This document shows positions 16,123 through 34,912 of a DNA stretch of 64,000 bases, one piece after another; within the stretch, counting starts at the first letter, position 1; every line of letters starts with the position of its first letter. The notes under the pieces are model-generated. The model did no database searches. It was not told the DNA's origin and was given only the letters and a program-made list of their open reading frames with translations. Origin of the DNA: Puniceicoccaceae bacterium (GTDB lineage: Bacteria; Verrucomicrobiota; Verrucomicrobiia; Opitutales; Coraliomargaritaceae); the NCBI GenBank assembly GCA_002729725.1, contig PBYS01000102.1:1-64000 (forward strand), given 5' to 3'. Position numbers and translations under genes: made by a program.

Positions 16123-17250
16123 ATGGAATTAAACTTCGACAACGCCGTCGCTTACCACGAGGGGCACTTTCCCCCTCCAAATGTTGATTACAGCCGAATC
16201 ATTCAGGCGCTGTTGAACGCGAACGACGCGCTGGCACGCTACGATCAAGCACTCGTGCACTTACATAATCGAGAGCTATTCCTCGCCCCTTTACGCAATC
16301 AAGAAGCGGTGCTCTCCTCACGCATGGAGGGCACGATTAGCACCGTCGATGAAATCCTCGAATACGAGAGCGATGATGATACCAACAAAGACGACGCAGG
16401 CGCTGTCCGTTCAGACATCATCGAAACCATCCTTTACCGCCGAGCGCTCAATTACGCGCAAGCAGACATCGAAGACGGTCGCCCAATGAACCAAGCGCTC
16501 CTACGCAGCATGCACCAGCTACTGCTTTCGCTGGGGCGTGGAGCCACGAAATCCCCGGGGCAGTTCAAGAGCGAACAAAACTACATCGGCGACGAACGCA
16601 CTGGCCGCATCAGTTACATCCCAATCAGCCCCGAAAAACTCGACGAAGGGCTCGACCGCCTCTTCCAATACATTGGTAGTGATGTGCATCCCGCACTGAT
16701 TCGCACCGCATTTGCCCATGTTGAATTCGAAGCCTTACACCCATTTAAAGACGGCAACGGACGCATTGGGCGCATGCTCATCACCTTGATGCTCTGGTCT
16801 TCTGGCATCATCTCATCCCCGCACTTCTATATCAGTCGCTACATGGAGGAGAATAAAGACGCCTACATCGCGCAGATGAAGGCCGTCTCCGCTGAAAATG
16901 ATTGGACCGGCTGGCTCCTTTTTTTCCTAGAAGCGGTCAAAGCCCAAGCCGACTACAACCTCAACGCGATGAACCGCATCCGTGAACTCTACGAAGCGAT
17001 GAAAGCTGTATTCGCAGAAATCACCGGCTCGAAGCATTCCATCGCCGTATTGGACGCAGTCTTCACGAGCCCGATCTTTAGAAATCAGCAAATCTGTAAG
17101 TGCTCTGGCGTTCCTCCGGCCACCATCAATCGCTTCACCAAAGCACTTTTAGCTGACCCACGCACCCTCCTTAAAGTCGCCCGCCCCGCCGCTGGCAGAC
17201 GGGCCGCAGTCTACTCCTTCGAACCCTTGTTAGAGCTTATCCGTGTGTAA
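16123..17250 (+). CDS. Fic-domain protein with N-terminal inhibitory motif
   Basis: A 375-residue Fic protein. Fic enzymes transfer AMP or other nucleotide moieties to target proteins. The active-site loop HPFKDGNGRIGR is complete (206-217). An N-terminal inhibitory helix motif SSRMEG (65-70), matching (S/T)xxxE(G/N), identifies the class II self-inhibited form. The C-terminal part has a winged-helix-like segment (NQQICKCSGVPPATINRFTKAL). The gene lies between hsdM and hsdS, a position Fic genes are often reported in. Its target, and whether it modifies the restriction enzyme, are unknown. Its stop overlaps the next reading frame (TAATG). Confidence 0.92.
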   Translation: MELNFDNAVAYHEGHFPPPNVDYSRIIQALLNANDALARYDQALVHLHNRELFLAPLRNQEAVLSSRMEGTISTVDEILEYESDDDTNKDDAGAVRSDIIETILYRRALNYAQADIEDGRPMNQALLRSMHQLLLSLGRGATKSPGQFKSEQNYIGDERTGRISYIPISPEKLDEGLDRLFQYIGSDVHPALIRTAFAHVEFEALHPFKDGNGRIGRMLITLMLWSSGIISSPHFYISRYMEENKDAYIAQMKAVSAENDWTGWLLFFLEAVKAQADYNLNAMNRIRELYEAMKAVFAEITGSKHSIAVLDAVFTSPIFRNQQICKCSGVPPATINRFTKALLADPRTLLKVARPAAGRRAAVYSFEPLLELIRV

Positions 17251-17714
17251 TGCAAAACGCCTCCTCAAACACTCACTCACAATCCATCTTATTCACACGA
17301 AAGGCCTTTCGCGTGAATAAGGCCCCCGTTCATTCACACGAACTCACGTTCGCGTTCATTAGAAGCGAACGCGCACAGAAATCGCTCCGCCCCGTAGCGC
17401 GAAGCTTCAGTAAGCGTCCCCCGCAGCAGCCGTCCATCCCGCCAATGCAATCGCCCGTAGCGTGGTGCTTCAGCAAGCTTCCCCCGCAGCCGCCGTCCTC
17501 CCCGCCAATGCAATCGGCCGTAGCGCGGTGCTTCAGCCCGCGTCCGTTTCGTCGGCCCGCCCTGCAGAATCAAACGGAGCAACGCGCCTTCATCGCAGGT
17601 GTCGAAAACCTCTGGGTTGCATACACGGTCAGCAGCCAACAACTCGAAACCGAGCGCGAAGCCACTCTTGGTCAGCTCAATGGATTTCTAAGTGAATTGG
17701 GGTATCTAGGATGA
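17250..17714 (+). CDS. Repeat-rich ORF ending in a duplicate HsdM C-terminus
   Basis: This 154-residue frame overlaps the fic stop by one base. Its N-terminal half is translated from palindromic repeats. The middle is a 21-residue tandem repeat (unit resembling VARSFSKRPPQQPSIPPMQSP). The last 46 residues, RAFIAGVENLWVAYTVSSQQ and onward to LSELGYLG, are a near copy of the HsdM C-terminus. It is probably not an independent functional protein. More likely it is a scar in which repeats and a duplicated hsdM 3' end happen to stay in frame, keeping translation flowing toward hsdS. Confidence 0.4.
   Translation: MQNASSNTHSQSILFTRKAFRVNKAPVHSHELTFAFIRSERAQKSLRPVARSFSKRPPQQPSIPPMQSPVAWCFSKLPPQPPSSPPMQSAVARCFSPRPFRRPALQNQTEQRAFIAGVENLWVAYTVSSQQLETEREATLGQLNGFLSELGYLG
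17393..17551 (+). repeat. 63-bp tandem repeat (2.5 copies), 21 codons per unit
   Basis: The marker CGTAGCG recurs at 17393, 17456 and 17519, exactly 63 bp apart. Units share GCTTCAG(T/C)AAGC..CCCCCGCAGC and CCCGCCAATGCAATCG. Because the period is a multiple of three the reading frame is kept. Confidence 0.85.
17577..17714 (+). repeat. Second copy of the hsdM 3' end (138 bp)
   Basis: Bases 17577-17714 closely match hsdM 15811-15948 over the full 138 bp with scattered substitutions, including the terminal GGATGA. It marks one boundary of the fic cassette insertion. Confidence 0.85.
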
Positions 17715-18037
17715 AGCAGCCACGCAACGAACTGATCGAATGGGCAACTACCGAGGAATCCTCGGTAGTTCAAAAAGAAGGCAAGCGAACCGTGCCATCC
17801 ATCTCTCGTCGATCCCCACAACCTCTATTCTCGCGAAGTATCGTTCGCGTTAATAGAGGCTCCGCTTATTCACACGAACTCCGGTTCGCGTTAATTAGAA
17901 ACGAACGAATCCAAAAACTACTTCATTCCGTAGCGCGAAGCTTCAGCAAGCGTCCGTATCCGCAGTTTGTCTTACGCGGTAACGCCGATACGCGCCAACT
18001 CAATGGATTTTTAAGTGGATTGGGGGCTTTGGGATGA
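17711..18037 (+). CDS. Short ORF between duplicated hsdM ends, probable insertion scar
   Basis: A 108-residue frame starts at an ATG overlapping the preceding stop (ATGA) and ends by reading [13 protein letters not shown], a third, 43-bp copy of the hsdM terminus. Its stop overlaps the hsdS start. The body is largely palindromic repeat, and shares RSFSKRP-like sequence with the preceding ORF. A perfect 12-bp stem (17746-17757 / 17759-17770) sits near the beginning. I regard it as coupled translation through a scar, not a recognised protein. Confidence 0.35.
   Translation: MKQPRNELIEWATTEESSVVQKEGKRTVPSISRRSPQPLFSRSIVRVNRGSAYSHELRFALIRNERIQKLLHSVARSFSKRPYPQFVLRGNADTRQLNGFLSGLGALG
17746..17770. 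repeat. Perfect 12-bp palindrome
   Basis: AACTACCGAGGA (17746-17757) pairs with TCCTCGGTAGTT (17759-17770) around a single central base. It could form a cruciform or be a dyad binding site. No T-tract follows. Confidence 0.7.
17995..18037 (+). repeat. Third copy of the hsdM terminus
   Basis: Forty-three bases matching the last 43 of hsdM (CAACTCAATGG... GGGATGA), ending in the ATGA that overlaps the hsdS start codon. This is the junction expected of the ancestral hsdM-hsdS pair. Confidence 0.8.
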
Positions 18038-19263
18038 GTGCGATTGAAGGATGGCAGACTCACACACTTGAGGAGTGCTGTGATATTCTAGATAATAAGC
18101 GTATTCCGATTAATGGCGAAGAAAGAGAAAGCCGAATCGGCACAGTTCCATACTATGGCGCTAACGGTTTGCAGGGATACATCGATGGTTTCATCTTTGA
18201 TGAGCCATTGATTCTAATCGCAGAGGATGGAGGTGTCTTCGATGAATATGCCACAAGGCCAATAGCATATAAGATCAGCGGGAAGAGCTGGGTAAATAAC
18301 CACGCGCATGTGCTTCGAGCTAAAGCCTCATTTGATCAAGACCTCATATTCTACAATTTAGAGCACAAGGATATTCAGTCTTATATCGTAGGTGGAACGC
18401 GCTCGAAACTAAATCAGGGAGCATTGCGGCAGATCGAGATCAACCTCCCCGAATCCCTCCCCGAACAAGCCAAGATCGCAGAGGTCTTATCGACGGTGGA
18501 TCGTGCCATCGCGCAGACGGAAGCGCTGATTACAAAGCAGCAGCGGATCAAGACGGGCCTGATGGCCGACCTCCTAACCCGGGGGATCGATGCAGACGGC
18601 AACCTCCGCTCCGAAGCCACCCACGCATTCAAAGACTCCCCCCTCGGCAGAATCCCGGTTGAGTGGGAGGTGAAGGATTTGAAGTCAGTTGGCAATTGGT
18701 ATAGTGGTGGAACTCCCTCTCGCTCCAATTCCGAGAATTGGGGAAATGAAGTCCCATGGGTCTGCCCCAAAGACATGAAGGTTTTTGACCTGAAAACTAC
18801 TATCGAAAAGTTAACAGCTTTGGGATTGAAACGTGGAAGTCGACTACTGCCTGCTGAAGCAATCTTTATTGTCGTTCGCGGAATGATCTTAGCCCATACA
18901 TTCCCTGTCTGTATTACAAACAAACCGATGGCGTTAAACCAAGATGTAAAGGGGATCGTAACAGATCCTAATGTTTGCTCACGTTTTTTCGCTTACTGGC
19001 TCTCTGAGCATGGACAGTCGTTATTGAAAATCACTACAACAGCAACCCATGGAACCAAGCGTTTCGATATGGGTGAATTGCATGCAGTCGATATCGCGAT
19101 ACCTCGCTTAAATGAGCAAAACGAGATAGTCCGATTAATAAACGAGGCTGAAAAACTTGGAATAAACTATCAGTCTGATCTTAAAAAATTCCGCTCCCTG
19201 AAAGCCGCACTAATGCAAGACCTGCTGACCGGGAAGGTACGGGTCACGACACTCTTAACTTAA
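18034..19263 (+). CDS. hsdS: Type I restriction-modification specificity subunit HsdS
   Basis: A 409-residue DNA-recognition subunit with two target recognition domains (about 5-150 and 215-350). The TRDs are separated and followed by conserved helical spacers: PEQAKIAEVLSTVDRAIAQTEALI...KTGLMADLLTRG in the centre and LKAALMQDLLTGKVRV at the end. Each TRD would read half of a bipartite site. The ATG overlaps the stop of the upstream frame by 4 nt. The half-sites cannot be deduced from the sequence alone. Confidence 0.95.
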   Translation: MSAIEGWQTHTLEECCDILDNKRIPINGEERESRIGTVPYYGANGLQGYIDGFIFDEPLILIAEDGGVFDEYATRPIAYKISGKSWVNNHAHVLRAKASFDQDLIFYNLEHKDIQSYIVGGTRSKLNQGALRQIEINLPESLPEQAKIAEVLSTVDRAIAQTEALITKQQRIKTGLMADLLTRGIDADGNLRSEATHAFKDSPLGRIPVEWEVKDLKSVGNWYSGGTPSRSNSENWGNEVPWVCPKDMKVFDLKTTIEKLTALGLKRGSRLLPAEAIFIVVRGMILAHTFPVCITNKPMALNQDVKGIVTDPNVCSRFFAYWLSEHGQSLLKITTTATHGTKRFDMGELHAVDIAIPRLNEQNEIVRLINEAEKLGINYQSDLKKFRSLKAALMQDLLTGKVRVTTLLT

Positions 19264-19289: not shown

Positions 19290-21869
19290 ATGACCAAGAT
19301 ATTCCTAAGCTACTCTCATAAAGACGAGGAACATGTCAGAAATTTCCTGACCCACACTGCACCTTTAAAGAATGAAGGAAATGTAGAGTTTTGGTATGAC
19401 CGGAAGCTTATTCCTGGGAACGAGTTACTCCCTCCAATTGACAAACAACTCGAAGACTCAGATGTTGTCTGCCTTTTTGTGTCCTCGTATTTTTTGGCTT
19501 CCCCTGCCTGCATGAAGGAAAAGCAACGGGCATTTGAACTTTATCATTCAAAAGCTATTTTTGTAATTCCTATCATCATTTCGAAGTGTGCTTGGCTAGA
19601 TGACAAAGAGATACAGGATTTTCTAGCGCTTCCGACAGATGGAAAAACGGTAACAAGCCATGAAGACGTCCACGAGGCATGGTTCGATGTGTATGAAGGT
19701 TTAAAGATATCAGTTGATCAGAGTCAAAAACTGTCTCGTCTCACAATAAAGGAATCATTCAGCGAATTTTTGGAGGATTCCGGCTTGTTACGCAACGCGC
19801 ATTCGCAGAAGGAAGAAGTTGCCCTTAGCGACATCTTCGTTCACCCGGAATTCGAATTATATGACAGCGAAGGAGAGCTTGAAGAAGAGGTAAAGGGCGA
19901 AACCCTGACGGAAGGCCTCTTCAAACATCAAAAAGTTCTAATTGCTGGCGATAGTCAGGCAGGCAAAAGTTGCCTACTGAAGATGACATATAAGGATCTT
20001 TATAAACGGGGCTACGTTCCGATCTTAGTCGAAGATAAAGAACACTCTTTTCAAGGTAAGATTTCAAACCACTTGAGGAAGTCTTTCGAAAAGCAGTATG
20101 AAGGATGTGTTTTTGACGATTTGCCACATCAAAGGATCATTCCGATAATCGACGACTTCCATTATGCACGAGACAAGGAATCTATCTTAGATGGGTTAGA
20201 ATCCTATGATACGCAAATAGTCGCGACTGACGATATCTTCAATTTAAACATAAGAAACGACCTGCTTGTAGATCAATACTCTCGCTTCACAATAAAAGAG
20301 CTAAAGCCCTCCTTGCGGCATAAGTTGATAAAGAAGTGGCTCACAGTCGGTGAATCTTCTGATGGCCTAATGATACAAGACAACGATATGTATCAAAAGG
20401 TAGATAGTAATCTCGAATTCGTAGAGGCATCATTGGGTAAAGTCTTGGGTAAAGGGATAATACCATCATATCCGTTCTTCATACTTTCAATTCTAAGTTC
20501 TAAAGATGCTTACCAGAAGCCGCTCGACCAAGAAATCACCTCGCAGGGCTACTGCTACCAGGCTCTTATTTACATGTATTTAAAGAAACATGGCGTTAAG
20601 AGCGATGAAATCGACTCATACCTAAATTTCCTCACAGAATTCGCATACAGCATGTTCACAAGGAAAGAAGTGGTGTTACAGGAAGCAGACTTTGTCACGT
20701 TCTTAGAAGGTTATAAGAGCAGATTCAATATGACGGTAGAAGCTGAAAAACTGATAACTACACTCACAAGTATTCAGATTATAAGCCGATCTAGCGTGAA
20801 CGACTATAAATTTAAGCACGACTACTTGTATTACTTCTTTGCAGCTAGGCACATCAGCGAGAACATCTCATCATGCAAAGACGATGTCTCTAGAATAATG
20901 TCGAATCTGCACAAGAACGAGAACGCCTATATTGCAATTTTTATCACACATCATTGCAAAAAGGATGATGTCATAGACGAGATAATACTTAACGCGTATT
21001 GCTTGTTTGATAAGTATAAACCGGCAGTGCTAGATACAAAAGAGTTATCCTTTTTTGACAAAGAGGTAAACCAAATTGCCCAAGAAGTCCTTCCTAATGG
21101 CTCAGAAACTCCTGAAAAGCACCGACACAGGCATCTCGAACAACACGACCAGGAGGAGAAAAGTCAGTCAAAGTCCGAGGATGAAGACATTCAGCAGGAT
21201 GAAGAACTAGGCGACGAATATGCTGCCATTTCCAAGGACTTAAGGCGAAGTATCAAAACAGTCGAGGTGATGGGACGGATTATTAAAAACCGCTCAGGCT
21301 CTATGCTTAAAGCCCGCCTTGAAGAGATATTCGAAGAGGCTATGAATGTTCACCTAAGAATTTTGACCTCGTTCATAAATATAATCGAGACGCCAAAAGG
21401 ACAGGCTGAGATCCTAGATTTCCTTACGCAGCGCATTGATCAAATCATTCAAGAGTCACCTAAGAAACAGAAGCCTACAAGAGACGAAATCAAGCGAATG
21501 GCAAAAGCTCTTTTTTGGAATGTCAACTTCATGGTCATTTACTCTACAGTGAAGAAAATTGTCCATTCGATCGGATCGGAGAATCTCATTGGCATCGCAG
21601 AAGAGGTTTGTAACAGGCGAAACACACCCGCCTCACATCTAGTCAAACACGGCATCTTAATGTGGTATAAGAAGAATGTGCGGGTCGAAGAAATCGCGAC
21701 CGAAATCAACAAGTCTGATTTTCCAGAGACAGCAAAAAGAGTAATGAAATATCAGATCGTAAACCATTGTTCAATGCACTCGATTAACTATAAAGATAAA
21801 CAACGGATCGCCGACAAGATTGGCATCCCTACGAAGCGACTACTTCTTGAGCAAGTAAAGTCGAAGTAG
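19290..21869 (+). CDS. TIR-domain STAND NTPase, putative anti-phage effector
   Basis: An 859-residue protein. The N-terminal TIR domain (about 1-140) has KIFLSYSHKDE, FWYDRKLIPGNE and SSYFLASPACMKEKQ, where Glu77 is the likely NADase catalytic residue. A P-loop NTPase follows with Walker A GDSQAGKS (220-227) and Walker B-like IIPIIDDF (283-290), typical of STAND/NACHT sensors. The C-terminal half is helical with an acidic, charged linker (about 610-640), and probably senses the trigger. Known TIR-STAND proteins deplete NAD+ on infection. The role here is inferred from domains and position after hsdS. The gene appears more AT-rich than hsdM, suggesting separate acquisition. Confidence 0.82.
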   Translation: MTKIFLSYSHKDEEHVRNFLTHTAPLKNEGNVEFWYDRKLIPGNELLPPIDKQLEDSDVVCLFVSSYFLASPACMKEKQRAFELYHSKAIFVIPIIISKCAWLDDKEIQDFLALPTDGKTVTSHEDVHEAWFDVYEGLKISVDQSQKLSRLTIKESFSEFLEDSGLLRNAHSQKEEVALSDIFVHPEFELYDSEGELEEEVKGETLTEGLFKHQKVLIAGDSQAGKSCLLKMTYKDLYKRGYVPILVEDKEHSFQGKISNHLRKSFEKQYEGCVFDDLPHQRIIPIIDDFHYARDKESILDGLESYDTQIVATDDIFNLNIRNDLLVDQYSRFTIKELKPSLRHKLIKKWLTVGESSDGLMIQDNDMYQKVDSNLEFVEASLGKVLGKGIIPSYPFFILSILSSKDAYQKPLDQEITSQGYCYQALIYMYLKKHGVKSDEIDSYLNFLTEFAYSMFTRKEVVLQEADFVTFLEGYKSRFNMTVEAEKLITTLTSIQIISRSSVNDYKFKHDYLYYFFAARHISENISSCKDDVSRIMSNLHKNENAYIAIFITHHCKKDDVIDEIILNAYCLFDKYKPAVLDTKELSFFDKEVNQIAQEVLPNGSETPEKHRHRHLEQHDQEEKSQSKSEDEDIQQDEELGDEYAAISKDLRRSIKTVEVMGRIIKNRSGSMLKARLEEIFEEAMNVHLRILTSFINIIETPKGQAEILDFLTQRIDQIIQESPKKQKPTRDEIKRMAKALFWNVNFMVIYSTVKKIVHSIGSENLIGIAEEVCNRRNTPASHLVKHGILMWYKKNVRVEEIATEINKSDFPETAKRVMKYQIVNHCSMHSINYKDKQRIADKIGIPTKRLLLEQVKSK

Positions 21870-22632: not shown

Positions 22633-24759
22633 ATGCCCCCCTTCGCCGAAACACCAGTGCCTCCCATGCTCACTCTCCGCCAGATTGCAGGGTGGAGCAC
22701 TGCGGTCGCTAACGGTGAAGATCAATCGCCGATCCGAGCCAGTGTGCCAGCATTACAACGCGGGTTGGTTTGGCAGCCGCAACAGGTAGAAATGCTGTGG
22801 GATTCGATCCTTCGAGGCTTTCCTATTGGGGCGTTCGTCGTCTGCCAGAAAGTGGACGAGCAAGAGCGAGGGAAGGATGATCGTGTGACGCATCATCTCC
22901 TTGACGGACAACAGCGCTGCAATGCAATCACGCTTGGTTTTAAAGACGTGTTTGAGAATCCGAAGCTGGCCTCAGGAGAGCACTCGGCGTCTTCCATCCT
23001 TTGGCTAGATCTAAACCCAAAATTGGACTCAAACAGCACTCGGAACTTCCTAACTCGAATTACCACTTTAGCGCACCCTTGGGGGTATCGAGGTAATGAT
23101 GATGCCGGATGTATCTCTACTTCTGCGATTCGAGACTCTCTCTGGAAAATTGGATTAAAGGATCTTTCATCTGCTGATTACGAACGGCCAAAGCCTGTCC
23201 AACTCTGGCCGCATGTGGCAATCGCTCCGATTCCGTTGGCATGGCTGTTAAACATTCAGGCTGAGGATCAAGTGACTTTCTGGGAGGCAGTCGACCGTCG
23301 GCTTGTTACAGAAGCATCCTACCCTTGGACTGCGAAGGCACGTGAGTTTTTGAGCGATCACTCTGACGAAGCGCAATCGCAACGTGATTACATCTTCCAA
23401 GGCATACAACGTGCAGCTGTGATTCGAATCATTGCCTTAGAAGCACCAGCTGAGATTTTAGAGGCTTCGAAGCAGGAAATTAGCCTTGGCCAAGAGCGAG
23501 AGAACATCTCGAATATTGAACACCTCTTTCAGCGTTTGAATCGTCAAGGCACACGCTTAGATGGAGAAGAGTTGGCCTATTCGATGATCAAGGCGTATTG
23601 GCCTGAGATCGCAGATGACATCGATACAGTGGCTGAGGGGCTGATGCCACAAGCTCGGTTGGTATCGTTGGCTGTGCGGGCGGCATTGGTAACTGCTGAA
23701 CAGGAACGACTGCCCCGGGTGATTGGGGTAAGTGCACTACGCAAGATGGTGAAGGCTGACACCGAGAAGCGAGACCTCATTCATCACTACATTACTAAGC
23801 GTTTAGAGGCGGCCTGTGAATTGGTAGGGAAATGGTTGCGCTATCACCCAGAGGACAAGCGAGAGGGGCTTTTGCCTGTGCATGTGACTAGCATCGCTCA
23901 TGGCGCTCCGGATCTGTATTTGCTTTTATTAACTTTCGCAGAACGGACACAGTCGGGGGAAGTGACGAATGATGGATGGGATCGACTCCTACCGGGATTG
24001 GTGACAGCCGTGCACTGGTTTGCAAAAGATAAAGCTAAAGTCGTCAACCGAATCTTCGTTGCCTGTCGGAATGAGATCTCTGTCGCAAACTTAAGGGAGG
24101 GCTTGGCCGATGCCATTGAGCCTGAGAAACTGAGCCCGATTCATACTCCCGAGAAAGTTCAAGCGTTTATTCGCTTTCCAGATAAGGATCTAAATAAATG
24201 GAATTGGTGGCACTTAATTGAAGGTGATGGTTCACCTGATGAGCTGGCACAGCGGCAAGCCCAATGGTGGGACTTTCTCGGGTTTCGAGGGAACCGTGAA
24301 TTGTTGCTTTATGTTCAGCGTGAGTTTTTGAATGATCGTTTCCACAACTATGATCCTGCACGTCGTGACTTATGGGAAGCGCACAATCGACCGTGGGACT
24401 TTGATCACATCCTCGCCTATAAGTATTTTTATAACCGAAGAGGCGATAATACGTTCATGCGTGTTTGTGCGCAACTGGGGAATACAATTGGGAATCTACG
24501 AGCCTGGCCGTTTGAAGACAATCGTTCGGATCAGTATGATACGGCAACGCAGAAGATCATCGATGACCGACTACTGAGCGCTAGTTTTGTGCTGCAAGAA
24601 GAATTACCTGCCTTCTCATTAGCGGATGAAGTTCGGAGTAAGGAACCAGCTGCCCGTGAATTTATTGGGAGCTGCCGCAGTCGGCTAATACGTATTTATG
24701 AATCTTGGTATGAAGATTCACACATCGCGGAACTCTTAGCTCCCCAAGATAAACAATAA
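22633..24759 (+). CDS. DUF262/HNH nuclease (GmrSD-like)
   Basis: A 708-residue protein of the DUF262 class. The N-terminal ParB-like/DUF262 domain shows LQRGLVW (41-47) and the hallmark DGQQR (91-95), which in this family form an NTP-hydrolysing site. Near the C-terminus is an HNH-type site: WDFDHILAYK (Asp591-His592), then GNTIGN and NRSDQYD, as in DUF1524. Relatives include GmrSD type IV restriction enzymes that cut modified phage DNA, and SspE. The gene starts 22 bp after the preceding one and is followed 20 bp later by a second, divergent DUF262 protein. The target modification is unknown. Confidence 0.85.
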   Translation: MPPFAETPVPPMLTLRQIAGWSTAVANGEDQSPIRASVPALQRGLVWQPQQVEMLWDSILRGFPIGAFVVCQKVDEQERGKDDRVTHHLLDGQQRCNAITLGFKDVFENPKLASGEHSASSILWLDLNPKLDSNSTRNFLTRITTLAHPWGYRGNDDAGCISTSAIRDSLWKIGLKDLSSADYERPKPVQLWPHVAIAPIPLAWLLNIQAEDQVTFWEAVDRRLVTEASYPWTAKAREFLSDHSDEAQSQRDYIFQGIQRAAVIRIIALEAPAEILEASKQEISLGQERENISNIEHLFQRLNRQGTRLDGEELAYSMIKAYWPEIADDIDTVAEGLMPQARLVSLAVRAALVTAEQERLPRVIGVSALRKMVKADTEKRDLIHHYITKRLEAACELVGKWLRYHPEDKREGLLPVHVTSIAHGAPDLYLLLLTFAERTQSGEVTNDGWDRLLPGLVTAVHWFAKDKAKVVNRIFVACRNEISVANLREGLADAIEPEKLSPIHTPEKVQAFIRFPDKDLNKWNWWHLIEGDGSPDELAQRQAQWWDFLGFRGNRELLLYVQREFLNDRFHNYDPARRDLWEAHNRPWDFDHILAYKYFYNRRGDNTFMRVCAQLGNTIGNLRAWPFEDNRSDQYDTATQKIIDDRLLSASFVLQEELPAFSLADEVRSKEPAAREFIGSCRSRLIRIYESWYEDSHIAELLAPQDKQ

Positions 24760-24779: not shown

Positions 24780-26915
24780 ATGAAAATATCTACAATACTC
24801 GATAAAATTGACGAGCATCAGCTCTTTGTCCCTGCCTTTCAACGTGAGTATGTTTGGAAGCGTGATGATGCAAAGCAACTGATTGATTCGCTGATCAAGG
24901 AATACCCAACTGGCACGATGCTGACGTGGGAGACGGCAAGCCCTCCCGAGTTAAAAGGGCCGCACAAGTATAGCTCTTCTCAAGGGGCGGTGAAGCTATT
25001 GCTCGATGGGCAGCAGCGGATCACTACGCTCTATATGCTGATTCATGGCGAGATCCCTTCTTACTACACGGCACCGGAGATCATGAACGACACTCGGGGG
25101 CTTTATGTGAATGTAGAGACCTTGGAGCTGTCCTACTACATGAAAACCAAGATGGAGAATAAGCCTTTATGGTTGAACATCACTGAGATCTTTAAGCGTA
25201 ACGTGCGTGCGAAAGACGTGGTGCGTGGGCTAGAGGCTTTAGGGGAAACAGTGGATCGCGATCGCGATGACCTTATTGATGATAATTTCACCGCCATTCA
25301 CAATATCCTGGATCGGGAATTCCCGGAGCAGACCATCCCGGTCAAAGCGAATATTCGCGAGGCCATTGATATCTTTTATAAGGTGAATGCGAGTGGAGTG
25401 GCGCTCACCGATGCAGAACTAGCACTTGCGCAAATTTCGGGCTATTGGCCCGAGGCTCGGGATCTATTTAAGGCAAAACTCTCAAAGTTGAAGGCTGATG
25501 GTTACGTCTTCAAATTAGACTTCCTTGTCTACGTTTTACTGGGATGCCTCTATCATCAGGGCTCTGAGATGAAGAAACTACATGACTCGGAGAACCGGGA
25601 ACCTCTCATCGCAGCATGGAAGCAATTGGATGGTCAGATTTTGGATTACGTTGTGAATGTTTTGCGTTCGAAGGCATTCGTGGATCACACGCATGAGATC
25701 AACTCGATCTATGCCTTAGTGACTATTATTGTTTACTGTTTCGACAAGGGAGGTGCCCATCTTTCGGAAGCGGAAATAAACAAGGTGGTGAAGTGGTTTT
25801 ACTATTCTCAGATACGTGCCCGCTATGTGAGTCAACTGCCGCAGAAGTTAGATCGCGATTTACGCACGCTACAAGAGTCTTCAAGTCCCTTTGACGATCT
25901 ACTACAAGTAATCGCGGATGAGCGCCGACTAGAAGTGACGCCAGAAGAAATGGAGGGCCGTGCGATTGGACATCCACTGTTTAGCATGATGCGCTGGTAT
26001 CTAAAAAGTCGTGGAGCTGTCTGTCTAACGACGGGAGTGACCTTACGCCAAAACATGGGAGAGAAATATCAGCTGGAACTGGATCATATCTTTCCATACT
26101 CACGCTTGAAAACAGCAGGCTATGGAAAAGGAAATCGCGTAAAGTATGCCTTGGCTCAGGAGTTCACCAACCGGGCTATATTGACCCAAGTCGCCAATCG
26201 AAAAAAATCAGCTGCGCCTGCGGTTAGCTATTTAACTTCTGTAGTCGAAAATTTCCCGAAGTCGCTAAAGCTACAATGTATCCCGGAAGATACTGAGCTA
26301 TGGCAATTGGAGAAGTATGAATCATTTTTAGCGACACGCCGTAAGATGCTGGCAACTGAACTGAATCGTTTCCTTGAAGGGATTACTCTAACTGAAGAAA
26401 CGGAGACTCCTATCTCAATCGAAGAGCTCATAGCAGATGGGGAGAGTGATGAACTGGAATTCAAATCGACTCTGCGCTGGGATTTACGCGAAGGTAAGCT
26501 GAATAAGAAACTCGAAGAAGTCATACTTAAAACGGTGGCAGCCTTTGCGAATTCAGACGGTGGCACCCTACTCGTTGGCGTGGATGATGCAGGTAATATT
26601 CTAGGGCTGGATAACGACTATACGTCACTAGGCGATGCAGACAAAGATAAGTTCGAAATGCATCTAAGGAATTTGATCGCAAATGCATACGGCAAGTCAT
26701 TCGCAGCGACTAAAGTGAAGATTCGCTTCCCACAGGTGAATGGTCTGGAGATTTGTCAGGTCGACACTCAAGAAGCAAGTGAACCGCTCATTCTAGCGAC
26801 AACTGATAAGAGCGGTCAAAAGGTGGAGAAGTTCTTTGTCCGAAATGGCAATGCCTCCCATGAGATGCCAATGAGTCAGATGAACAGCTATATGAAGGGG
26901 CGCTTTACCTCTTAG
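24780..26915 (+). CDS. DUF262-HNH nuclease fused to a C-terminal AlbA_2 (Schlafen-type) domain
   Basis: A 711-residue three-part protein. Residues about 1-230 form a DUF262 domain with FQREYVW (20-26) and DGQQR (76-80). A helical middle leads to an HNH site, LELDHIFPYSRL with Asp435-His436, then NRAILTQVANRKKS. Residues about 550-700 are an AlbA_2 domain (GESDELEFKSTL, ILKTVAAFANSDGGTLLVGV), a putative nucleic-acid-binding module. The fusion places a GmrSD-like nuclease and an AlbA_2 domain in one chain, and a free AlbA_2 protein lies 1.4 kb downstream. It is co-directional with the neighbouring DUF262 gene. Activity against modified DNA is inferred. Confidence 0.85.
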   Translation: MKISTILDKIDEHQLFVPAFQREYVWKRDDAKQLIDSLIKEYPTGTMLTWETASPPELKGPHKYSSSQGAVKLLLDGQQRITTLYMLIHGEIPSYYTAPEIMNDTRGLYVNVETLELSYYMKTKMENKPLWLNITEIFKRNVRAKDVVRGLEALGETVDRDRDDLIDDNFTAIHNILDREFPEQTIPVKANIREAIDIFYKVNASGVALTDAELALAQISGYWPEARDLFKAKLSKLKADGYVFKLDFLVYVLLGCLYHQGSEMKKLHDSENREPLIAAWKQLDGQILDYVVNVLRSKAFVDHTHEINSIYALVTIIVYCFDKGGAHLSEAEINKVVKWFYYSQIRARYVSQLPQKLDRDLRTLQESSSPFDDLLQVIADERRLEVTPEEMEGRAIGHPLFSMMRWYLKSRGAVCLTTGVTLRQNMGEKYQLELDHIFPYSRLKTAGYGKGNRVKYALAQEFTNRAILTQVANRKKSAAPAVSYLTSVVENFPKSLKLQCIPEDTELWQLEKYESFLATRRKMLATELNRFLEGITLTEETETPISIEELIADGESDELEFKSTLRWDLREGKLNKKLEEVILKTVAAFANSDGGTLLVGVDDAGNILGLDNDYTSLGDADKDKFEMHLRNLIANAYGKSFAATKVKIRFPQVNGLEICQVDTQEASEPLILATTDKSGQKVEKFFVRNGNASHEMPMSQMNSYMKGRFTS

Positions 26916-26917
26916 AT

Positions 26918-28255
26918 ATGAATCCCTTATTACTTAAAAGAGCTCCCGGAGTGAAAACCACGATTTCGACCGTATTTGCAGTGTTCGCGTTGGCTTCTTC
27001 TGTTAGTGGTTACAGATTGGGAAAGGTTGCTCTAGGACTAAAAGCTATAAATGAAGAGATAGCTCAGCGTGAGCAAGTCTCAGAGCCTACACAAATAGAA
27101 GATCTACGATACATTGAAGTCGAATCGATCGATGGACGGAAGTTAGAGGCGGAAGTTATCGAGCATGATGGTGAAACGCTTAAGTTTTACAGCATGGCGG
27201 CCAAGCAGGAGTATGAGGTGAGTTTTGATCGGCTATCTGATAAGACACAGAAATTATTGAGAGAAGAAATTCCGACCAGATTTCTAGATTTGCCACAAGG
27301 GTGGGCGGATAAAAGTCATAATGGCGAAGAGGCGAATGCAGTTGAAGATGTGCTCACTGGGTTGAGCATTGATAAGGTGCATATCGACATCAAGGACTAT
27401 GACTCCAAGGAGAGAGCAAAATATTATAGATTAAGGGAAAGTCGTGGGATGATGTCGTCGAATGAACTATTAGAGTCCTTCGTCTGCCTTCCCAATTCCG
27501 ATCGCTTTCCAGTCGAGGCACTGCGTGGTGACTTGCTGGGAGAAAAGACTTCGTTGTATGGGGCTATAGAATACTTAATGCCATTACATGAGGCAGATTT
27601 GGCTTTGAAGGGCGTCGTTGAACAACCTTCTTCTCAGATGATTATCTGCCCAGGGTTTCCTGATAAAGCGTTCAAACTACATCTTTACCCAATCAAAAAA
27701 GAATATCGAGAAGAGTATGGAGTTAATGATGAAAGCAAGATTAGCGGTTATAATTCGATTGGTCTTGCTGTTGATGGCCGCAGGCAAGTTGTAGCGGTTC
27801 AGTTGAACCGGACGACGGATGTGGCCGATTTGCCCAGTGCTCCCTATGGTTCTAACGGCCATAGGTTATTTAACTTTCTAGAATACAAAAAAAGTGCAAC
27901 CGAAAGCGGCGGTGTTAGTATTCGTGGTGATATAGGCACGGGCTCCGATTTGACTCTTTACAAGACGCGTCCCCAACTTGGTTTTTATCTCTTTAAAGTG
28001 GATCAATTCTCAAGCAAGAAGCCAGTCATAGCTATTCGCAAAAGCTTCCGTAGTGATCGAAGACTAGAAAATTATAGTATGCTCATGTTACATGCGAATT
28101 TAGGACGCATCATATTATATAACATCGAAAAGAACTGGCTGCTTCAAGAAAGTGATGAATTTAAGCGAATCGATTCGATCGACATGGACGAATTACTTGA
28201 GATTCGCGATAAATTAAAAGCGCTTCCATCTGAAGGAAACGATCAACCCTTTTAA
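26918..28255 (+). CDS. Membrane-anchored protein with SHD1-like domain
   Basis: A 445-residue protein starting 2 bp after the previous stop. An N-terminal hydrophobic segment (about 14-33) could be a signal anchor. Residues about 67-115 (IEVESIDGRKLEAEVIEHDG, SFDRLSDKTQKLL) resemble the SHD1 (SLA1 homology) SH3-like domain common in exported proteins of Planctomycetes and Verrucomicrobia. The remaining 330 residues are unrecognised, with mixed alpha/beta character. Its place between the DUF262-AlbA fusion and the AlbA/winged-helix gene suggests it belongs to the same module. No catalytic motif is visible. Confidence 0.6.
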   Translation: MNPLLLKRAPGVKTTISTVFAVFALASSVSGYRLGKVALGLKAINEEIAQREQVSEPTQIEDLRYIEVESIDGRKLEAEVIEHDGETLKFYSMAAKQEYEVSFDRLSDKTQKLLREEIPTRFLDLPQGWADKSHNGEEANAVEDVLTGLSIDKVHIDIKDYDSKERAKYYRLRESRGMMSSNELLESFVCLPNSDRFPVEALRGDLLGEKTSLYGAIEYLMPLHEADLALKGVVEQPSSQMIICPGFPDKAFKLHLYPIKKEYREEYGVNDESKISGYNSIGLAVDGRRQVVAVQLNRTTDVADLPSAPYGSNGHRLFNFLEYKKSATESGGVSIRGDIGTGSDLTLYKTRPQLGFYLFKVDQFSSKKPVIAIRKSFRSDRRLENYSMLMLHANLGRIILYNIEKNWLLQESDEFKRIDSIDMDELLEIRDKLKALPSEGNDQPF

Positions 28256-28265
28256 CCCGTTTTCA

Positions 28266-28925
28266 ATGAATCCAGCAGAATCCCAACATCTTGAATACAA
28301 ACGTGAGCTGAGCGATGGCTTGGAACGCGAGGTCGTGGCCTTTCTCAACCATCGGGATGGCGGGCAGATTCATGTCGGGATCGATGATGCGGGCACGGTG
28401 GTCGGCTTGACCGATCCGGATGGGGATCAGCTCAATTCTGAAAATAAGGAGTTGATGCGCATCTTCCGTGACTTGGAAATGGTCGAGTATCTCGGCTCAG
28501 GCATGCCCCGGATCTTGCGTGTTTACCCGAAAGAGTGTTTCCGGTTTACGGAGAATTTTACGCGTATGGTCTTCGTATCGGCCGAACCAAGTGTCGGAGA
28601 GGCGCCACCAGAAACGTCGGAGACAGCGTCGGAGAGGGGTAAGGTAGAAAATGAGGTAGAGAGTAAGGTAGAAACGCCACCAGAAACGTCGAAGACTACC
28701 CCAAAGACGACCCCAAAGACTACCCCAAAGACTACCCCAAAGACGACTTCGGAGCGATTGCTGAAAATCCTGAAGCAACAGCCAGGGATAGGTCGGACCG
28801 AGCTGGCCGCTCAGTTGGGAATGACTACGGACGGCGTGAAATACCATCTGAACCGGCTCAGAGACGAGGAGCGTATCCAACATAAGGGCTCCACTCGCGG
28901 CGGTCACTGGGAGGTTTTAAAATGA
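28266..28925 (+). CDS. AlbA_2 / winged-helix protein, internally deleted
   Basis: A 219-residue protein. It starts with an AlbA_2 domain (LEYKRELSDG, VVAFLNHRDGGQIHVGIDD), jumps to NKELMRIFRDLEMVEYLGSG, the HATPase_c_4-like part found near the end of these proteins, and ends with a winged helix (residues about 163-219, finishing GGHWEVLK). Full-length relatives are about 450 residues, so roughly 200 residues of the middle are missing. A 12-bp tandem repeat encodes KTTP units before the winged helix. It may be a functional short regulator or a decaying gene. Its stop overlaps the hsdR start (ATGA). Confidence 0.7.
   Translation: MNPAESQHLEYKRELSDGLEREVVAFLNHRDGGQIHVGIDDAGTVVGLTDPDGDQLNSENKELMRIFRDLEMVEYLGSGMPRILRVYPKECFRFTENFTRMVFVSAEPSVGEAPPETSETASERGKVENEVESKVETPPETSKTTPKTTPKTTPKTTPKTTSERLLKILKQQPGIGRTELAAQLGMTTDGVKYHLNRLRDEERIQHKGSTRGGHWEVLK
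28691..28746 (+). repeat. 12-bp tandem repeat encoding KTTP
   Basis: Almost five units of AAAGAC(T/G)ACCCC within the linker of the AlbA/winged-helix gene. A similar run appears at about 36203-36230 in a remnant of a related gene, so the linker repeat is a family trait. Confidence 0.8.
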
Positions 28926-31900
28926 AGAAGCCTACGAACAAATACAAAATCGACGAGCGCAACCACGTCGAACTCCCCCTACTCGATCAGCTGCGTGGGC
29001 TGGACTGGGAGGTGCTGGACTTGGGCCTGGAGCAAAAGCCGCAGGATAGCCATCGGGAAAATTTCGCAGAGGCGGTCATGCTCCCTGTCCTACGGGAGCA
29101 ATTGATGGTGATCAATCCTTGGCTGGAATTGGATCAGGTGGAGTCGGTGGTCAAGTCACTCACCGCCAGCTTCCCGGGGACGAATCTGCTCAAGAATAAT
29201 CAGTTTGTGCTCCAGCTCTTGCATGAGGGCGTCAGTGTGTCGGAGAACCGAGTCACGGGGGAACAGAGCCCTTCGGTTCGCTACATCGACTACAAGGATG
29301 TTTCGAAGAATCGATACATCGCAGTCTGCCAGTTTAAGCAGCGCATCCGTGGCACGGAGCATCACATCATCCCGGATGTGGTCTTGTTTCTAAATGGCCT
29401 GCCGGTGGCGGTGATCGAATGCAAGTCGCCCAAGGTGAAGGATGCCATCCCTGAAGCGATTGATCAGATGCTGCGCTACAGTGAGCAACGCGGCGCGAGG
29501 GGCGAAGGCAATGCCTCGCTCTTTTACTACAATCAGATCGTGGTGGCGACCTGTCGGCAGGAAGCAAAGTTTGGCACGATCAGCACCCACACGGAAAAGT
29601 ATTTTTATCGCTGGGCAGACCCCTACCCTCGTAAACTGGAAGAGCTGGAGCATGGCACCAGCAGCCCCAACGATCAGCAACGTCTCGTCGCCGGGATGTT
29701 TGACCACAAGAACCTGTTGGACCTGATTCGCACCTTCACCCTCTTCTCGACCAACGACAAGGGGGAGATGATTAAGATCGTCGGGCGTTATCAGCAATTC
29801 CGTGCGGTCAAACTGGCCGTCGCACGCTTGCTGACGGGGAAGACACCTCGTAAGTGTGGCGGCATCGTCTGGCACACTCAGGGCTCTGGCAAATCACTGA
29901 CCATGATGTTCATGGTGCGGGAAATGTATCGGCACGCGAAGCTGGCCAACTGGAAGGTGATCTTTGTCACCGACCGCACCCAACTAGAAGAGCAACTGAG
30001 TGAGACCAGTCAGAGCATCGGCTACACGGTGAAGATCGCGAACAGCATTAATCGCCTCAAGGAACTGCTGCGGGCGGAGACCTCGGATCTGGTGATGGCC
30101 ATGATCCATAAATTCCGGGAGAAGGACATGGAGCAAGCCTTCCCGGAATTAAACACCAGCCCCAATATTTTGGTAATGACGGATGAAGCCCACCGTTCGC
30201 AATACAAGATGCTCGGAGCCAATCTGGACAAGGGACTACCGAATGCCACCAAGATCGGCTACACGGGCACTCCGATCGATGCGACAGAGCGATGGTTCGG
30301 CGATTACATCGACAAATACACCATGCGCCAAGCCATCGATGATGGTGTGACGCTGGAAATCGTCTACGAGGGGCGCACACATACCTCCTGCGTAAAGGAC
30401 GCGGACGGGATGGATGCCACCTTCAAGAATGTCTTTAAAGATTACACGGCGGAGGAATGCCTCGAAATTCTGGGCTACGGCTCAAAGGTCGCCTACCTGG
30501 AGGCGGACTCGACCGTTGAGGCCAAGGCGAAGGATATGGTCGCGCACTATCTCACGCATGTGTATCCCAATGGGTATAAGGCGCAGATCGTGGCCACCTC
30601 GCGCGAGGCTGCGGTTCGCTACAAAAAGCACGTGGATGATGCCCTGGCCGAGCAGTTGGCCGAACTGAAGACTGAAAATCCGGAAGGCCTGAATGCCGAG
30701 CAATTGGAACAACTCAAGCAGCTGCAAACCGATGTCATCATTTCGTCGGGGCATAACGACTTCCCCCACCTAAAAGCGTATGCAGACGCTGGGACTCACG
30801 AGAAGAGCATTAAGAGCTTTAAGCTCTCGTTTGGCGCAGAGGATGAAGGTGTGAGTGGGAGCATGGGCATTCTGATCGTGAACAATATGCTCCTGACCGG
30901 CTTTGACGCCCCGGTGGAACAAGTGATGTATCTCGACAAGGTGGTGACCAATCATGGGCTGCTACAAGCGATTGCCCGGGTGAACCGTGTCGGAGGCGAA
31001 GCAAAGGAGAAAGGCTTCGTGGTCGACTATGTCGGCATCGGGTCGGATCTAAAGAAAGCGATCGATGCCTACGAAGACCGGGAACAGAAGGAAGTGCTCA
31101 ATGCCCTCAGCTTCCCGGAGGATGAATATCAGGATCTAGTCGCGAGTCATCAAGCGATCTTAACCCTACTCGAAACGAACGGCCTGACCGACTTAACGGA
31201 TACCGATGCGTTCTACGATCTATTCTACGACGAAGACCTACGCTTCGACTACATGGATGCCTTCCGGAAGTTTACCAGGTGTCTGAACTTGGTCTATCCA
31301 TCCAAGGAGGCGCTTAATTTCGTCAGCGATTACAACGCCTTGGCTGCGGTGAATGTGATGGCATCCAAACACCTCCGGGATGAGCGCTTGAGCATGAAGG
31401 GCATCCCACCAAAGTTGCGCGGGATCACCGACCAGTATTTGGAATCAAAAGGCATCGACCCAAAGATTAAGCCGATCTCGATTCTGGATGATGATTTTGA
31501 AAAGCAAGTCGGCAAGCGCAGCCGCACCAAGACTAAGGCAGCTGAGATCGAGCATGCGATCCGGCACCACCTGGATATCGATCTGGATGATGATCCGGAC
31601 CTGCAAGCCTCCTTTGCCGAAGCACTGGCACAGATTTTCAAAGACTTCCAAGATAACTGGAAGAAGATCTACGAGGAGCTGGAGAAGCTGCGCCAGCGCA
31701 TCATCAACGCCAGCAAGGAAGAAACCTACGGCCTGCATCGCAAGAAGGAGATGCCCTTCTTCCGCCGCTTTAAGCTCGAAATCTTCGGTAAGACGCCTGA
31801 TGTGGACATGGGATTTACAGAACAGGCGGCCGCGCCAAGCCAAGCCCCCTTCAATATGAGCGAGGAAGATCAAATCTCGTTGCTAGTTTCACTCACGAAG

Positions 31901-32113
31901 GATGTCACGATAACGGTCGAGCGGGAACTCAGTTTAGTCGGATTCTGGGAGTCGATCCCCGCCCGCAAACGACTGGAGCAGGACTTACAAAAGATACTGC
32001 TGCAACCAGAACTAAAGAAGCTACCAGTGCTCTTCAAAAATCGACGCGCCATCATCAGCCGCATTATGGAAATTGCGAAGAATAACCACGATGCGATTCT
32101 CTACTCAGAATGA
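28922..32113 (+). CDS. hsdR: Type I restriction endonuclease subunit HsdR
   Basis: A 1063-residue motor and nuclease subunit. The N-terminal PD-(D/E)xK nuclease has IIPDVV (Asp152) and VIECKSP (Glu166, Lys168), followed by the QMLRYSEQRG Q-box-like helix. The SF2 translocase has Walker A GSGKS (321-325) and DEAH (421-424), with later motifs around GYTGTPI and LLTGFDAP. The C-terminal helical domain binds the methyltransferase. It completes the hsdM/hsdS pair although about 9.7 kb of other defence genes separate hsdS from hsdR. Translation is coupled on both sides by ATGA overlaps. Confidence 0.96.
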   Translation: MKKPTNKYKIDERNHVELPLLDQLRGLDWEVLDLGLEQKPQDSHRENFAEAVMLPVLREQLMVINPWLELDQVESVVKSLTASFPGTNLLKNNQFVLQLLHEGVSVSENRVTGEQSPSVRYIDYKDVSKNRYIAVCQFKQRIRGTEHHIIPDVVLFLNGLPVAVIECKSPKVKDAIPEAIDQMLRYSEQRGARGEGNASLFYYNQIVVATCRQEAKFGTISTHTEKYFYRWADPYPRKLEELEHGTSSPNDQQRLVAGMFDHKNLLDLIRTFTLFSTNDKGEMIKIVGRYQQFRAVKLAVARLLTGKTPRKCGGIVWHTQGSGKSLTMMFMVREMYRHAKLANWKVIFVTDRTQLEEQLSETSQSIGYTVKIANSINRLKELLRAETSDLVMAMIHKFREKDMEQAFPELNTSPNILVMTDEAHRSQYKMLGANLDKGLPNATKIGYTGTPIDATERWFGDYIDKYTMRQAIDDGVTLEIVYEGRTHTSCVKDADGMDATFKNVFKDYTAEECLEILGYGSKVAYLEADSTVEAKAKDMVAHYLTHVYPNGYKAQIVATSREAAVRYKKHVDDALAEQLAELKTENPEGLNAEQLEQLKQLQTDVIISSGHNDFPHLKAYADAGTHEKSIKSFKLSFGAEDEGVSGSMGILIVNNMLLTGFDAPVEQVMYLDKVVTNHGLLQAIARVNRVGGEAKEKGFVVDYVGIGSDLKKAIDAYEDREQKEVLNALSFPEDEYQDLVASHQAILTLLETNGLTDLTDTDAFYDLFYDEDLRFDYMDAFRKFTRCLNLVYPSKEALNFVSDYNALAAVNVMASKHLRDERLSMKGIPPKLRGITDQYLESKGIDPKIKPISILDDDFEKQVGKRSRTKTKAAEIEHAIRHHLDIDLDDDPDLQASFAEALAQIFKDFQDNWKKIYEELEKLRQRIINASKEETYGLHRKKEMPFFRRFKLEIFGKTPDVDMGFTEQAAAPSQAPFNMSEEDQISLLVSLTKDVTITVERELSLVGFWESIPARKRLEQDLQKILLQPELKKLPVLFKNRRAIISRIMEIAKNNHDAILYSE

Positions 32114-32799
32114 GTCTGGATTTCGAGTATAGCATCCAACGATCCGCGAAACGGAAACGCCTGACCATCACCGTCGAGCGCGACCGAACAGTCGTCGTCC
32201 ATGCGCCCACGGAAGTTTCCGAAGCAAAGATCGAAGAGATCCTGCTAGCCAAACAGCGCTGGATACGGGACAAAATAAACCACTCTCAAAAATATACGGC
32301 CCCGATCCATCCCCCCGGGAAGGAGATCGTGAATGGAGAGTCGGCCCTCTACCTCGGACGTCACTATCAGATCGAACTGATCCCCGGGAAAGAGAAAGCC
32401 ATCCGCTTCGAGCAGAAGTTTCTAATCCCCGCCTGGCTGGCCTCCGGACGGCGCACAGTGCTGCGCTCGTGGTATAAAGAACGAGCAGAGGAAAAGATCC
32501 TCCCAAAAGTCGAGAAAATCGCCAAGCAGCTCGGAGTCAACTACGGCAAGGCCCGCCTAATCGACGATCTCTACCGCTGGGGCTCCTGCACGCCGAACGA
32601 CAACCTACATTTCAACTGGCGACTGATTAAGGCACCAGTCTACGTGATCGACTACGTGATCATCCACGAACTCGCCCACCTAAGAGAACCCAACCACACC
32701 CCCCGCTTCTGGAGCATCGTGCATTCCCAATGCCCAAAGATGGACAAGGCCAAGCAATGGCTCAAGGAGCACGGCCAGATTCTGGAAGAGGAAGTTTAG
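32110..32799 (+). CDS. YgjP-like zinc metallopeptidase (DUF45)
   Basis: A 229-residue YgjP/DUF45 (SprT-like) protein. The N-terminal beta-rich domain (RSAKRKRLTITVERD...VVVHAPTEV) is typical, and the catalytic zinc motif HELAHLREPNH lies near residue 185, in which both histidines of HELAH and the later His are present. RWGSCTPNDNLHFNW is the conserved pre-motif. The ATG overlaps the hsdR stop by 4 nt. YgjP-type genes are often found directly after type I hsdR, so it is likely part of the operon. Its substrate is unknown. Confidence 0.9.
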   Translation: MSLDFEYSIQRSAKRKRLTITVERDRTVVVHAPTEVSEAKIEEILLAKQRWIRDKINHSQKYTAPIHPPGKEIVNGESALYLGRHYQIELIPGKEKAIRFEQKFLIPAWLASGRRTVLRSWYKERAEEKILPKVEKIAKQLGVNYGKARLIDDLYRWGSCTPNDNLHFNWRLIKAPVYVIDYVIIHELAHLREPNHTPRFWSIVHSQCPKMDKAKQWLKEHGQILEEEV

Positions 32800-33400: not shown

Positions 33401-33997
33401 ATGCCCAATCAACTAGAGAAACTGGAGAAAATTCTGAAGGCACGTGGTATTCTACGTGTCGGCGAGCTTGCCCCGATGGGCTTTCCTCTGTCCTACCTGA
33501 GCGAACTTGAAAAACGTGAAAAAGCCATCAAGCACGCCCGTGGCGTTTACATGCATCCCGATGCCGACATCCCGAACCACTACAGTCTCGCTCTTGCCTG
33601 CCAACAAAGTCCGAACGGCGTGATCTGTCTATTGTCGGCCCTCGCCTACCATGAGATCGGCACCCAAAACCCGCAGGACGTCTGGATTGCAATTGATGGA
33701 AAAGCAAAAGCGCCGAAAACAGACTACCCTCCCCTGCGGGTGATGCGCTTCTCCGGCGAGTCCCTAAGTGAGGGCATTGAACGCACGGAAGGAGCCTTTC
33801 CACTTCGGGTGTATTGCCCCGCTAAAACCATCGCAGACTGCTTTAAGTTTCGAAACAAAATCGGGCTGGATGTCACGATCGAAGCGCTACGCGATGGCTG
33901 GCAGCACAAGCGCTTCACACTGGACGCGCTCGACCACTACGCCAAAATTTGCCGAGTGGACAAAGTGATCACACCCTACCTGGAGGCGATTCTATGA
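33401..33997 (+). CDS. abiEi: AbiEi-family type IV antitoxin
   Basis: A 198-residue AbiEi-like protein with an N-terminal winged helix (about 5-60, GILRVGELAPMGFPLSYLSEL) followed by the AbiEi C-terminal region (LSALAYHEIGTQNP, VYCPAKTIADCFKFRNKIG). In AbiE systems the antitoxin represses the operon and counters the nucleotidyltransferase toxin AbiEii without direct binding. The frame is intact. Its stop overlaps the start of abiEii (ATGA). Because the toxin gene is broken, the antitoxin may survive as a regulator only. Confidence 0.88.
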   Translation: MPNQLEKLEKILKARGILRVGELAPMGFPLSYLSELEKREKAIKHARGVYMHPDADIPNHYSLALACQQSPNGVICLLSALAYHEIGTQNPQDVWIAIDGKAKAPKTDYPPLRVMRFSGESLSEGIERTEGAFPLRVYCPAKTIADCFKFRNKIGLDVTIEALRDGWQHKRFTLDALDHYAKICRVDKVITPYLEAIL

Positions 33998-34912
33998 GCG
34001 AAAAATCTGACAAAAAGAACGTCAGCGCTTCGATCAAGCAGAAGCTACTCAATCATGCGCGGCAGTCGAACTTGGATTTTAATGCCCTGCTCATTCGATT
34101 CACGATGGAGCGTCTCCTATACCGCTTATCTATTTCGCCCTACAGCGAGCAGTTCTATTTGAAGGGAGCCATGCTCTTCGTGATGTGGGAGAACACGGCC
34201 CATCGCCCCACTAAAGATCTGGATTTGCTCTTTATTCCACAGCATGACAGCGATCAATTGGTGAAGACATTTCAGCAAATCGCGATGCTTCCTAACATTC
34301 ACGATGGCATCCTAATCGACCCAGCATCAGTAAAAGCCGAACAAATCCGCGAAGAAAACACTTATGGTGGACTGCGGATCAAATTAATCTGTGAACTGGG
34401 GACGATCAAGATCCCCTTACAAATTGATGTTGGACTGGGTGACTCAGTCTATCCTTCAACCGAGATCTCAGCGTTCCCTTCATTACTCGATTTCGAAATC
34501 CCTAGAATTCGTGCTTACCCGGCCGAAACTGTCGTTGCCGAGAAATTACAAACGATGGTCGAGCTCGGGATGCGTAATAGCCGCATCAAAGATTACTACG
34601 ATGTCTATTACCTGTCACAAAAGTTTGGCTTCAATGGAGCCGAACTCAGTGAAGCCGTGCAGCTCACCTTTCAACGTCGGAAAACCGCATGGCCGGACGC
34701 TTGCCCAATCGGACTCAGTCAGATGTTTGCAACCGAACCCTAGAAACAAACGCAATGGCAGGCATTTATCCGCAAAAACCGATTAGAAGCCCCCCAACGA
34801 ACTGCCCAAAATCGTTGACCGAATTGTAGACTTTGTGCTGCCGATATTCCTCGATTCAACCATAGCCGATCAAATGTGGAATCCAAGCAAGGACTGGATC
34901 CCACGAGCTTGA
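33994..34912 (+). pseudogene. abiEii: AbiEii-family nucleotidyltransferase toxin, interrupted
   Basis: The first 249 codons encode an AbiEii/MenT-type nucleotidyltransferase with LKGAMLFVMW, the catalytic pattern RPTKDLDLL, LQIDVGLGD and an IKDYYDVYYLS segment. A TAG at 34741-34743 ends it, but the same frame continues with QTQWQAFIRKNRLEAP. After a run of six C at 34790-34795 the family's C-terminal sequence (ELPKIVDRIVDFVLPIFLD) resumes in the +1 frame and ends at 34912. So there is one nonsense mutation and one probable single-base insertion. The catalytic part is intact, so residual toxin activity cannot be excluded. Confidence 0.85.

Follow-up and report, generated by a model that had tools for sequence, protein, structure and literature searches.

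Background

Enzymes of the GmrSD family use a DUF262 domain to sense modified DNA with an NTP, and an HNH nuclease to cut it. Two systems of this kind are BrxU, encoded beside BREX, and TgvAB, encoded in a type I operon; both act against phages whose cytosines are modified (PMC12707154, PMC11411939). The additional domains given in a 2015 survey of GmrSD proteins are DUF4268, DUF4357 and DNA_binding_1, with AlbA and Schlafen left unmentioned; DUF262-HNH proteins fused to HEPN domains are also on record (PMC3710099). In the literature searched we found no paper on a protein that combines DUF262 with a Schlafen domain. Type I-embedded GmrSD genes (TgvAB, RloF; PMC11411939) are already known, and bacterial Schlafen effectors have been reported (as cited in PMC12839542).

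Here we analyze such a fusion gene, encoded in a 64,000 nucleotide stretch of a Puniceicoccaceae bacterium (contig PBYS01000102.1, positions 1 to 64,000), hereafter the window. Over residues 1-540 the protein shares DUF262, a helical linker and HNH with the GmrSD-family type IV enzyme BrxU/HEC-05 (PDB 7p9k/7p9m), and both occur beside a methylation-based defence system, but the solved BrxU lacks an AlbA_2 domain and its partner system is BREX. RloF, a DUF262 protein of Campylobacter jejuni type I loci as cited in PMC11411939, is similarly encoded between hsd genes, and the description given there includes no AlbA_2 fusion. Fusions of the VNG7073 type (PMC3710099) also add an RNase-family domain to DUF262-HNH, HEPN standing in place of the Schlafen RNase fold. 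The AlbA_2 fold is shared with the tRNase domain of SAMD9, and fold plus E-E-D triad with the Schlafen RNases SLFN13 and SLFN14; unlike Schlafens, each chain of the fusion has a single lobe, which forms the C-terminal part of a restriction enzyme. PrrC in EcoprrI is likewise a tRNase-type effector within a type I operon, whereas in the fusion an RNase-fold domain shares its chain with a DNA nuclease, and the domains of PrrC are unrelated to those of the fusion.

Results and discussion

The fusion gene within a type I operon

The fusion gene sits inside a type I restriction-modification operon that extends from hsdM (13240) to hsdR (32113), with hsdM, hsdS and hsdR on one strand and separated by short gaps. 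The unbroken same-strand run continues to 32799 (intergenic gaps -4 to 174 bp) and includes the following annotated genes:

13240-15948, + strand, hsdM (N6_Mtase E 1.3e-100, HsdM_N)
16123-17250, + strand, Fic-domain gene (SoFic-like), inside the operon
18034-19263, + strand, hsdS (Methylase_S E 9.9e-37)
19290-21869, + strand, embedded TIR and STAND-type NTPase gene (TIR_2, nSTAND4; PDC-S60 and ThsB matches)
22633-24759, + strand, P0002, 708 aa, a separate DUF262 protein that carries an HNH-like site of its own, probably an independent enzyme
24780-26915, + strand, the DUF262-HNH-AlbA_2 fusion gene, 711 aa, ATG start
28266-28925, + strand, short AlbA_2-wHTH gene, apparently internally deleted
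28922-32113, + strand, hsdR (HSDR_N E 4e-36, SWI2_SNF2 E 9e-70)
32110-32799, + strand, YgjP-like metallopeptidase gene (PF01863 E 5.9e-58), last of the run

Two small ORFs lie between the Fic gene and hsdS, a 215-aa ORF between the TIR-STAND gene and P0002, and a 445-aa ORF between the fusion and the AlbA_2-wHTH gene. A preliminary description of the locus had noted both DUF262 genes; that observation was borne out but incomplete, having missed the type I operon around them.

Several neighbors merit separate mention. The C-terminal 700 residues of the TIR-STAND protein (19290-21869) resemble the DS8 anti-phage family (DS8_antiphage) at a score under the curated cut-off. The two small ORFs (17250-18037) share repeats (SVARSFSKRP/PVARSFSKRP, QLNGFLS.LG), and no family was found for them. 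The 445-aa protein (26918-28255) is hydrophobic near its N-terminus and reaches the cut-off of no family in Pfam, PADLOC or NCBIfam; its ORF begins 2 bp past the fusion gene, yet it is not a neighbor common to relatives. The AlbA_2-wHTH gene (28266-28925) looks internally deleted because a paralogue in the same genome (C125:53353-54177, a 382-aa frame) matches it in two parts with ~160 residues between them; that paralogue, too, has an HSDR_N match less than 3 kb away. Directly downstream of the operon is an AbiEii-type nucleotidyltransferase toxin gene (33949-34743).

Domain anatomy of the fusion protein

The 711-residue chain carries FQREYVW at 20-26, DGQQR at 76-80 and Asp-His at 435-436, all as the preliminary description had it, and divides into three parts:

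24786-25433, + strand, DUF262/GmrSD_N domain, residues 3-218 (Pfam PF03235 E 5.8e-31; QR 21-22, DGQQR 76-80, FxxxN 199-203)
25962-26279, + strand, HNH (His-Me finger) nuclease region, approximately residues 395-500 (D435, H436, N464, N473; BrxU alignment and fold)
26442-26867, + strand, SLFN_AlbA_2 domain, residues 555-696 (Pfam PF04326 E 2.9e-18; E555, E560, D603)

Both Pfam matches are far over their cut-offs, SLFN_AlbA_2 scoring 66.9 bits where 25.3 would suffice; profile and structure comparison agree on the fusion of DUF262-HNH to a Schlafen-type AlbA_2 domain that had been proposed. The motifs of the GmrSD family are present, both those of DUF262 (QR, DGQQR, FxxxN) and the C-terminal D-H...N...N of HNH. 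Pfam DUF1524 gives no score on the 711-aa chain, and the HNH assignment rests on alignment to BrxU, fold and residue conservation. The best PADLOC match of the fusion is HEC-05 (residues 66-533, E 2.2e-43), which is equated with BrxU in PMC11411939, and an NCBIfam search of the protein returned no family. A profile of the fusion family matches BrxU with E 4e-25, aligning D435-H436 to the BrxU DHIYP motif, although the HNH stretch of this match, in which DH-N-N are aligned, is weak taken alone.

An AlphaFold2 model, computed from an alignment that left out three plasmid sequences, has a mean pLDDT of 88, with a poorly predicted linker at ~540-544. Residues 1-540 of this model match BrxU (Z 22.1, spanning BrxU 6-579) as well as SspE and DndI; the whole-chain rmsd against BrxU is large, so domain placement differs. 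By profile and predicted fold, the fusion is a GmrSD/BrxU-type protein, in which DUF262 is followed by an HNH site and then by a genuine SLFN_AlbA_2 domain.

Distribution and conservation

A single scan across 84,980 species genomes recovered 127 relatives, the best 80 of which were kept. These best 80 of 127 are 37-80% identical to the fusion, nearly all matched across the full 711 residues, and come from Verrucomicrobiota, Pseudomonadota, Bacteroidota, Cyanobacteria, Acidobacteriota, Desulfobacterota, several candidate phyla and one archaeal bin. Further carriers are Sinorhizobium, at 70% identity, and a pair of haloarchaeal plasmids, at 35%. A second group of fusions, ~29% identical and with the same architecture, occurs in the source's own order, and one of its members (L182) lies within an operon ordered R-M-S-AAA-fusion. 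Viral contigs yielded no relative with the AlbA_2 half, their best matches spanning residues 1-545 at ~30%.

Conservation was read from an alignment of 64 sequences, of which 63 are full-length relatives, many from isolate genomes, and both halves are kept throughout. DUF262 residues Q21, R22, D76-R80, F199 and N203 are each found in 64/64, as are H436 and N464 of the HNH site, with D435 and N473 in 63/64. In the AlbA_2 domain E555 and E560 are likewise kept in every sequence, and D603 in 61/64, being replaced by N in the other 3. All three predicted active sites are near-invariant in the alignment. Across species, the divergence of one half tracks that of the other (Mantel r 0.83, 0/1000 permutations). 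In some relatives from metagenome bins (L043, L062, L080) the fusion gene is split into two frames, where assembly error or decay is possible.

Genomic context of the relatives

Of the 58 relatives whose flanks reach 10 kb or more, 36 have type I genes near the fusion (hsdR 34, hsdM 31, hsdS 30), and none of the other gene families tested exceeded 8 of these loci. The background of HSDR_N is ~0.4 per Mb by our estimate from 96 genomes of the phylum, so by chance alone a match is expected in ~1% of flanks of this kind. If the chance rate were as high as 10%, the binomial tail for hsdR in 34/58 would still be 1e-19, a figure that overstates independence because some of the loci are close relatives.

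The operons vary in gene order (with T for the fusion: RTMS 11, MSTR 6, MSRT 5, TMSR 4). Fusion proteins average 61% identity, their HsdM partners only 29%, and 149/215 fusion pairs that are more than 60% identical lie beside HsdM less than 30% identical. With its order varying and its HsdM partners unrelated, the fusion gene seems to be mobile among type I operons that are themselves unrelated. It also occurs near a DISARM-type methylase (L006), near a DUF499-DUF1156 methylase-PLD helicase system (L012, and L015 by clustering with L012), near type II-like methylases (L016, and L061 by clustering with L016) and near a type III enzyme with an HKD-Snf2 helicase (L047).

Schlafen likeness of the AlbA_2 domain

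The AlbA_2 profile matches SLFN11, 12, 13 and 14 (E down to 5e-11). Read from the printed profile alignment, E555/E560/D603 fall on SLFN14 E206/E211/D249, which are equivalent to the tRNase triad E205/E210/D248 of SLFN13, in which E205A and E210A abolish tRNA cleavage (PMC5862951). In structure comparison, for which Foldseek was also run, residues 544-710 match AlbA_2 and Schlafen structures at Z 7.0-13.8 overall, including DIP2311 (Z 13.8), the DNA-bound SAMD9 AlbA_2 domain (7ksp, Z 12.4), a SAMD9 domain whose deposition (9o0d, Z 11.7) names it a tRNase, and Schlafens 5, 11, 12, 13 and 14, though such likeness of fold is by itself no proof of activity. The fusion thus has the AlbA_2 fold and E-E-D triad of a Schlafen RNase, but only one AlbA_2 domain where Schlafens form an RNA-binding valley from two AlbA_2-like lobes in one chain; in a dimer, the other chain might contribute that second lobe.

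The E....E.K plus D pattern is present in all 21 AlbA_2 sequences examined, some of them in signalling-like contexts, and for that reason the triad alone is no proof of RNase action. In these proteins AlbA_2 is consistently C-terminal behind differing N-terminal parts. Proteins of ~500-550 aa with a C-terminal AlbA_2 domain occur at L105:397-2004 and in L097-L104, with a PDC-like sensor in L105. At L181:5688-6977, within an RND efflux operon, AlbA_2 is joined to a cNMP-binding domain, a possible case of AlbA_2 as the output of a nucleotide sensor. A Pycsar-like reading of a similar protein (L095, cNMP-binding and AlbA_2) was rejected, as an RND efflux pump lies nearby and no cyclase was recognized among the neighbors checked.

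Proposed mechanism and alternative explanations

The three-part anatomy, the conserved predicted sites, the predicted folds and the type I linkage of the fusion are established. The interpretation that we place on them, and regard as evenly balanced between right and wrong, is of a single-chain type IV enzyme of the GmrSD/BrxU family, carried as a cassette in type I and other methylation-based defence operons and equipped with a Schlafen RNase effector. By analogy with its family, the DUF262 part would bind NTP and sense foreign, probably base-modified, DNA, which the HNH site would cut, catching phages whose modification evades the neighboring restriction-modification system; we consider this part of the scheme quite likely. 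The C-terminal AlbA_2 domain would be a metal-dependent Schlafen-type RNase, paired across a BrxU-like dimer and switched on by the same trigger, which would cleave tRNA or another structured RNA and arrest translation if DNA cleavage fails. For this RNase step our confidence is a little short of even. The complete sequence of events, in which one polypeptide senses modified DNA, cuts it through HNH and cleaves tRNA through its Schlafen domain, all as a cassette among unrelated type I operons, is offered tentatively and may well prove wrong in some part. On balance the fusion is best read as a BrxU-like type IV restriction enzyme that is portable and complements defence based on methylation.

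The principal question is what AlbA_2 contributes. It may be a mere DNA-binding or targeting module that helps HNH find its substrate, making the protein an ordinary type IV enzyme; DNA-bound SAMD9 AlbA_2, the description of SLFN5-N as DNA-binding (7cux) and several regulator-like prokaryotic AlbA_2 proteins favor such a module, which we consider a serious though less probable explanation, because a pure binding domain would not need the acidic RNase triad kept in the alignment. Nucleic-acid binding or regulation, the role first suggested for this domain, is for the same reason too weak a statement, catalysis being at least as likely. The triad, the steady C-terminal position and the DUF262-HNH-HEPN precedent favor the RNase reading, in which a Schlafen-type RNase would be the probable second effector. 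Such an RNase could instead be a guard, held inactive by the intact type I complex and released when phages inhibit or bypass it, much as T4 Stp frees the PrrC of EcoprrI to cut tRNA-Lys (PMC12707154). Tight type I linkage across many families and positions fits a guard, but the fusion also lies near DISARM-like, type II/III and DUF1156-methyltransferase systems, or near no recognized restriction-modification system, and the low identity of the HsdM partners makes a specific Hsd contact less likely; we judge the guard improbable.

The preliminary description had further suggested that the fusion and P0002 form a hetero-complex. The two genes share a strand and are 20 bp apart, and P0002 is a complete DUF262-HNH protein that does have its own sites as described, LLDGQQR and an HNH-like RPWDFDH...IGN...NRSD, both kept in its relatives (RPWD(F/Y)DH...IGN...NR in P0002 and five of them). 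The locus resembles TgvAB of V. cholerae VPI-2, GmrSD-like genes in tandem within a type I operon where both proteins are needed (PMC11411939). An obligate pair of this kind is nevertheless very unlikely, and we rejected it: a DUF262 neighbor is found at 0/58 fusion loci with at least 10 kb of flank, relatives of P0002 (39-48% identity) lie in genomes without a detected fusion, and P0002 carries an HNH-like site whereas TgvA, the conserved partner of an HNH-bearing protein, has none, nor is an AlbA_2 domain described for TgvAB (PMC11411939). Judged by these comparisons P0002 is probably an independent enzyme; co-operation with the fusion is possible by analogy with the two-protein TgvAB, though nothing suggests that it is required. 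That the fusion or the tandem is an artefact of assembly or annotation has a negligible chance of being correct. A failure to detect AlbA_2, or an artefactual fusion, was to have overturned the original proposal; the Pfam match and the alignment speak against both, with both halves held in all 64 sequences and co-varying in distance, and beyond the few split metagenome copies nothing was found in support of an artefact.

Conclusions

The prevailing view is that type IV enzymes cut DNA and Schlafens cut RNA. If our interpretation is true, the presence of both sites in one conserved protein ties DNA restriction directly to translation arrest, and a single protein may cut viral DNA and stop protein synthesis of the infected cell. 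It would also be a bacterial Schlafen that occurs naturally, is simple to test and comes with a candidate trigger. That the fusion is placed in type I operons repeatedly lends support to the view of restriction loci as carriers of a second line of effectors, of which PrrC and TgvAB are examples.
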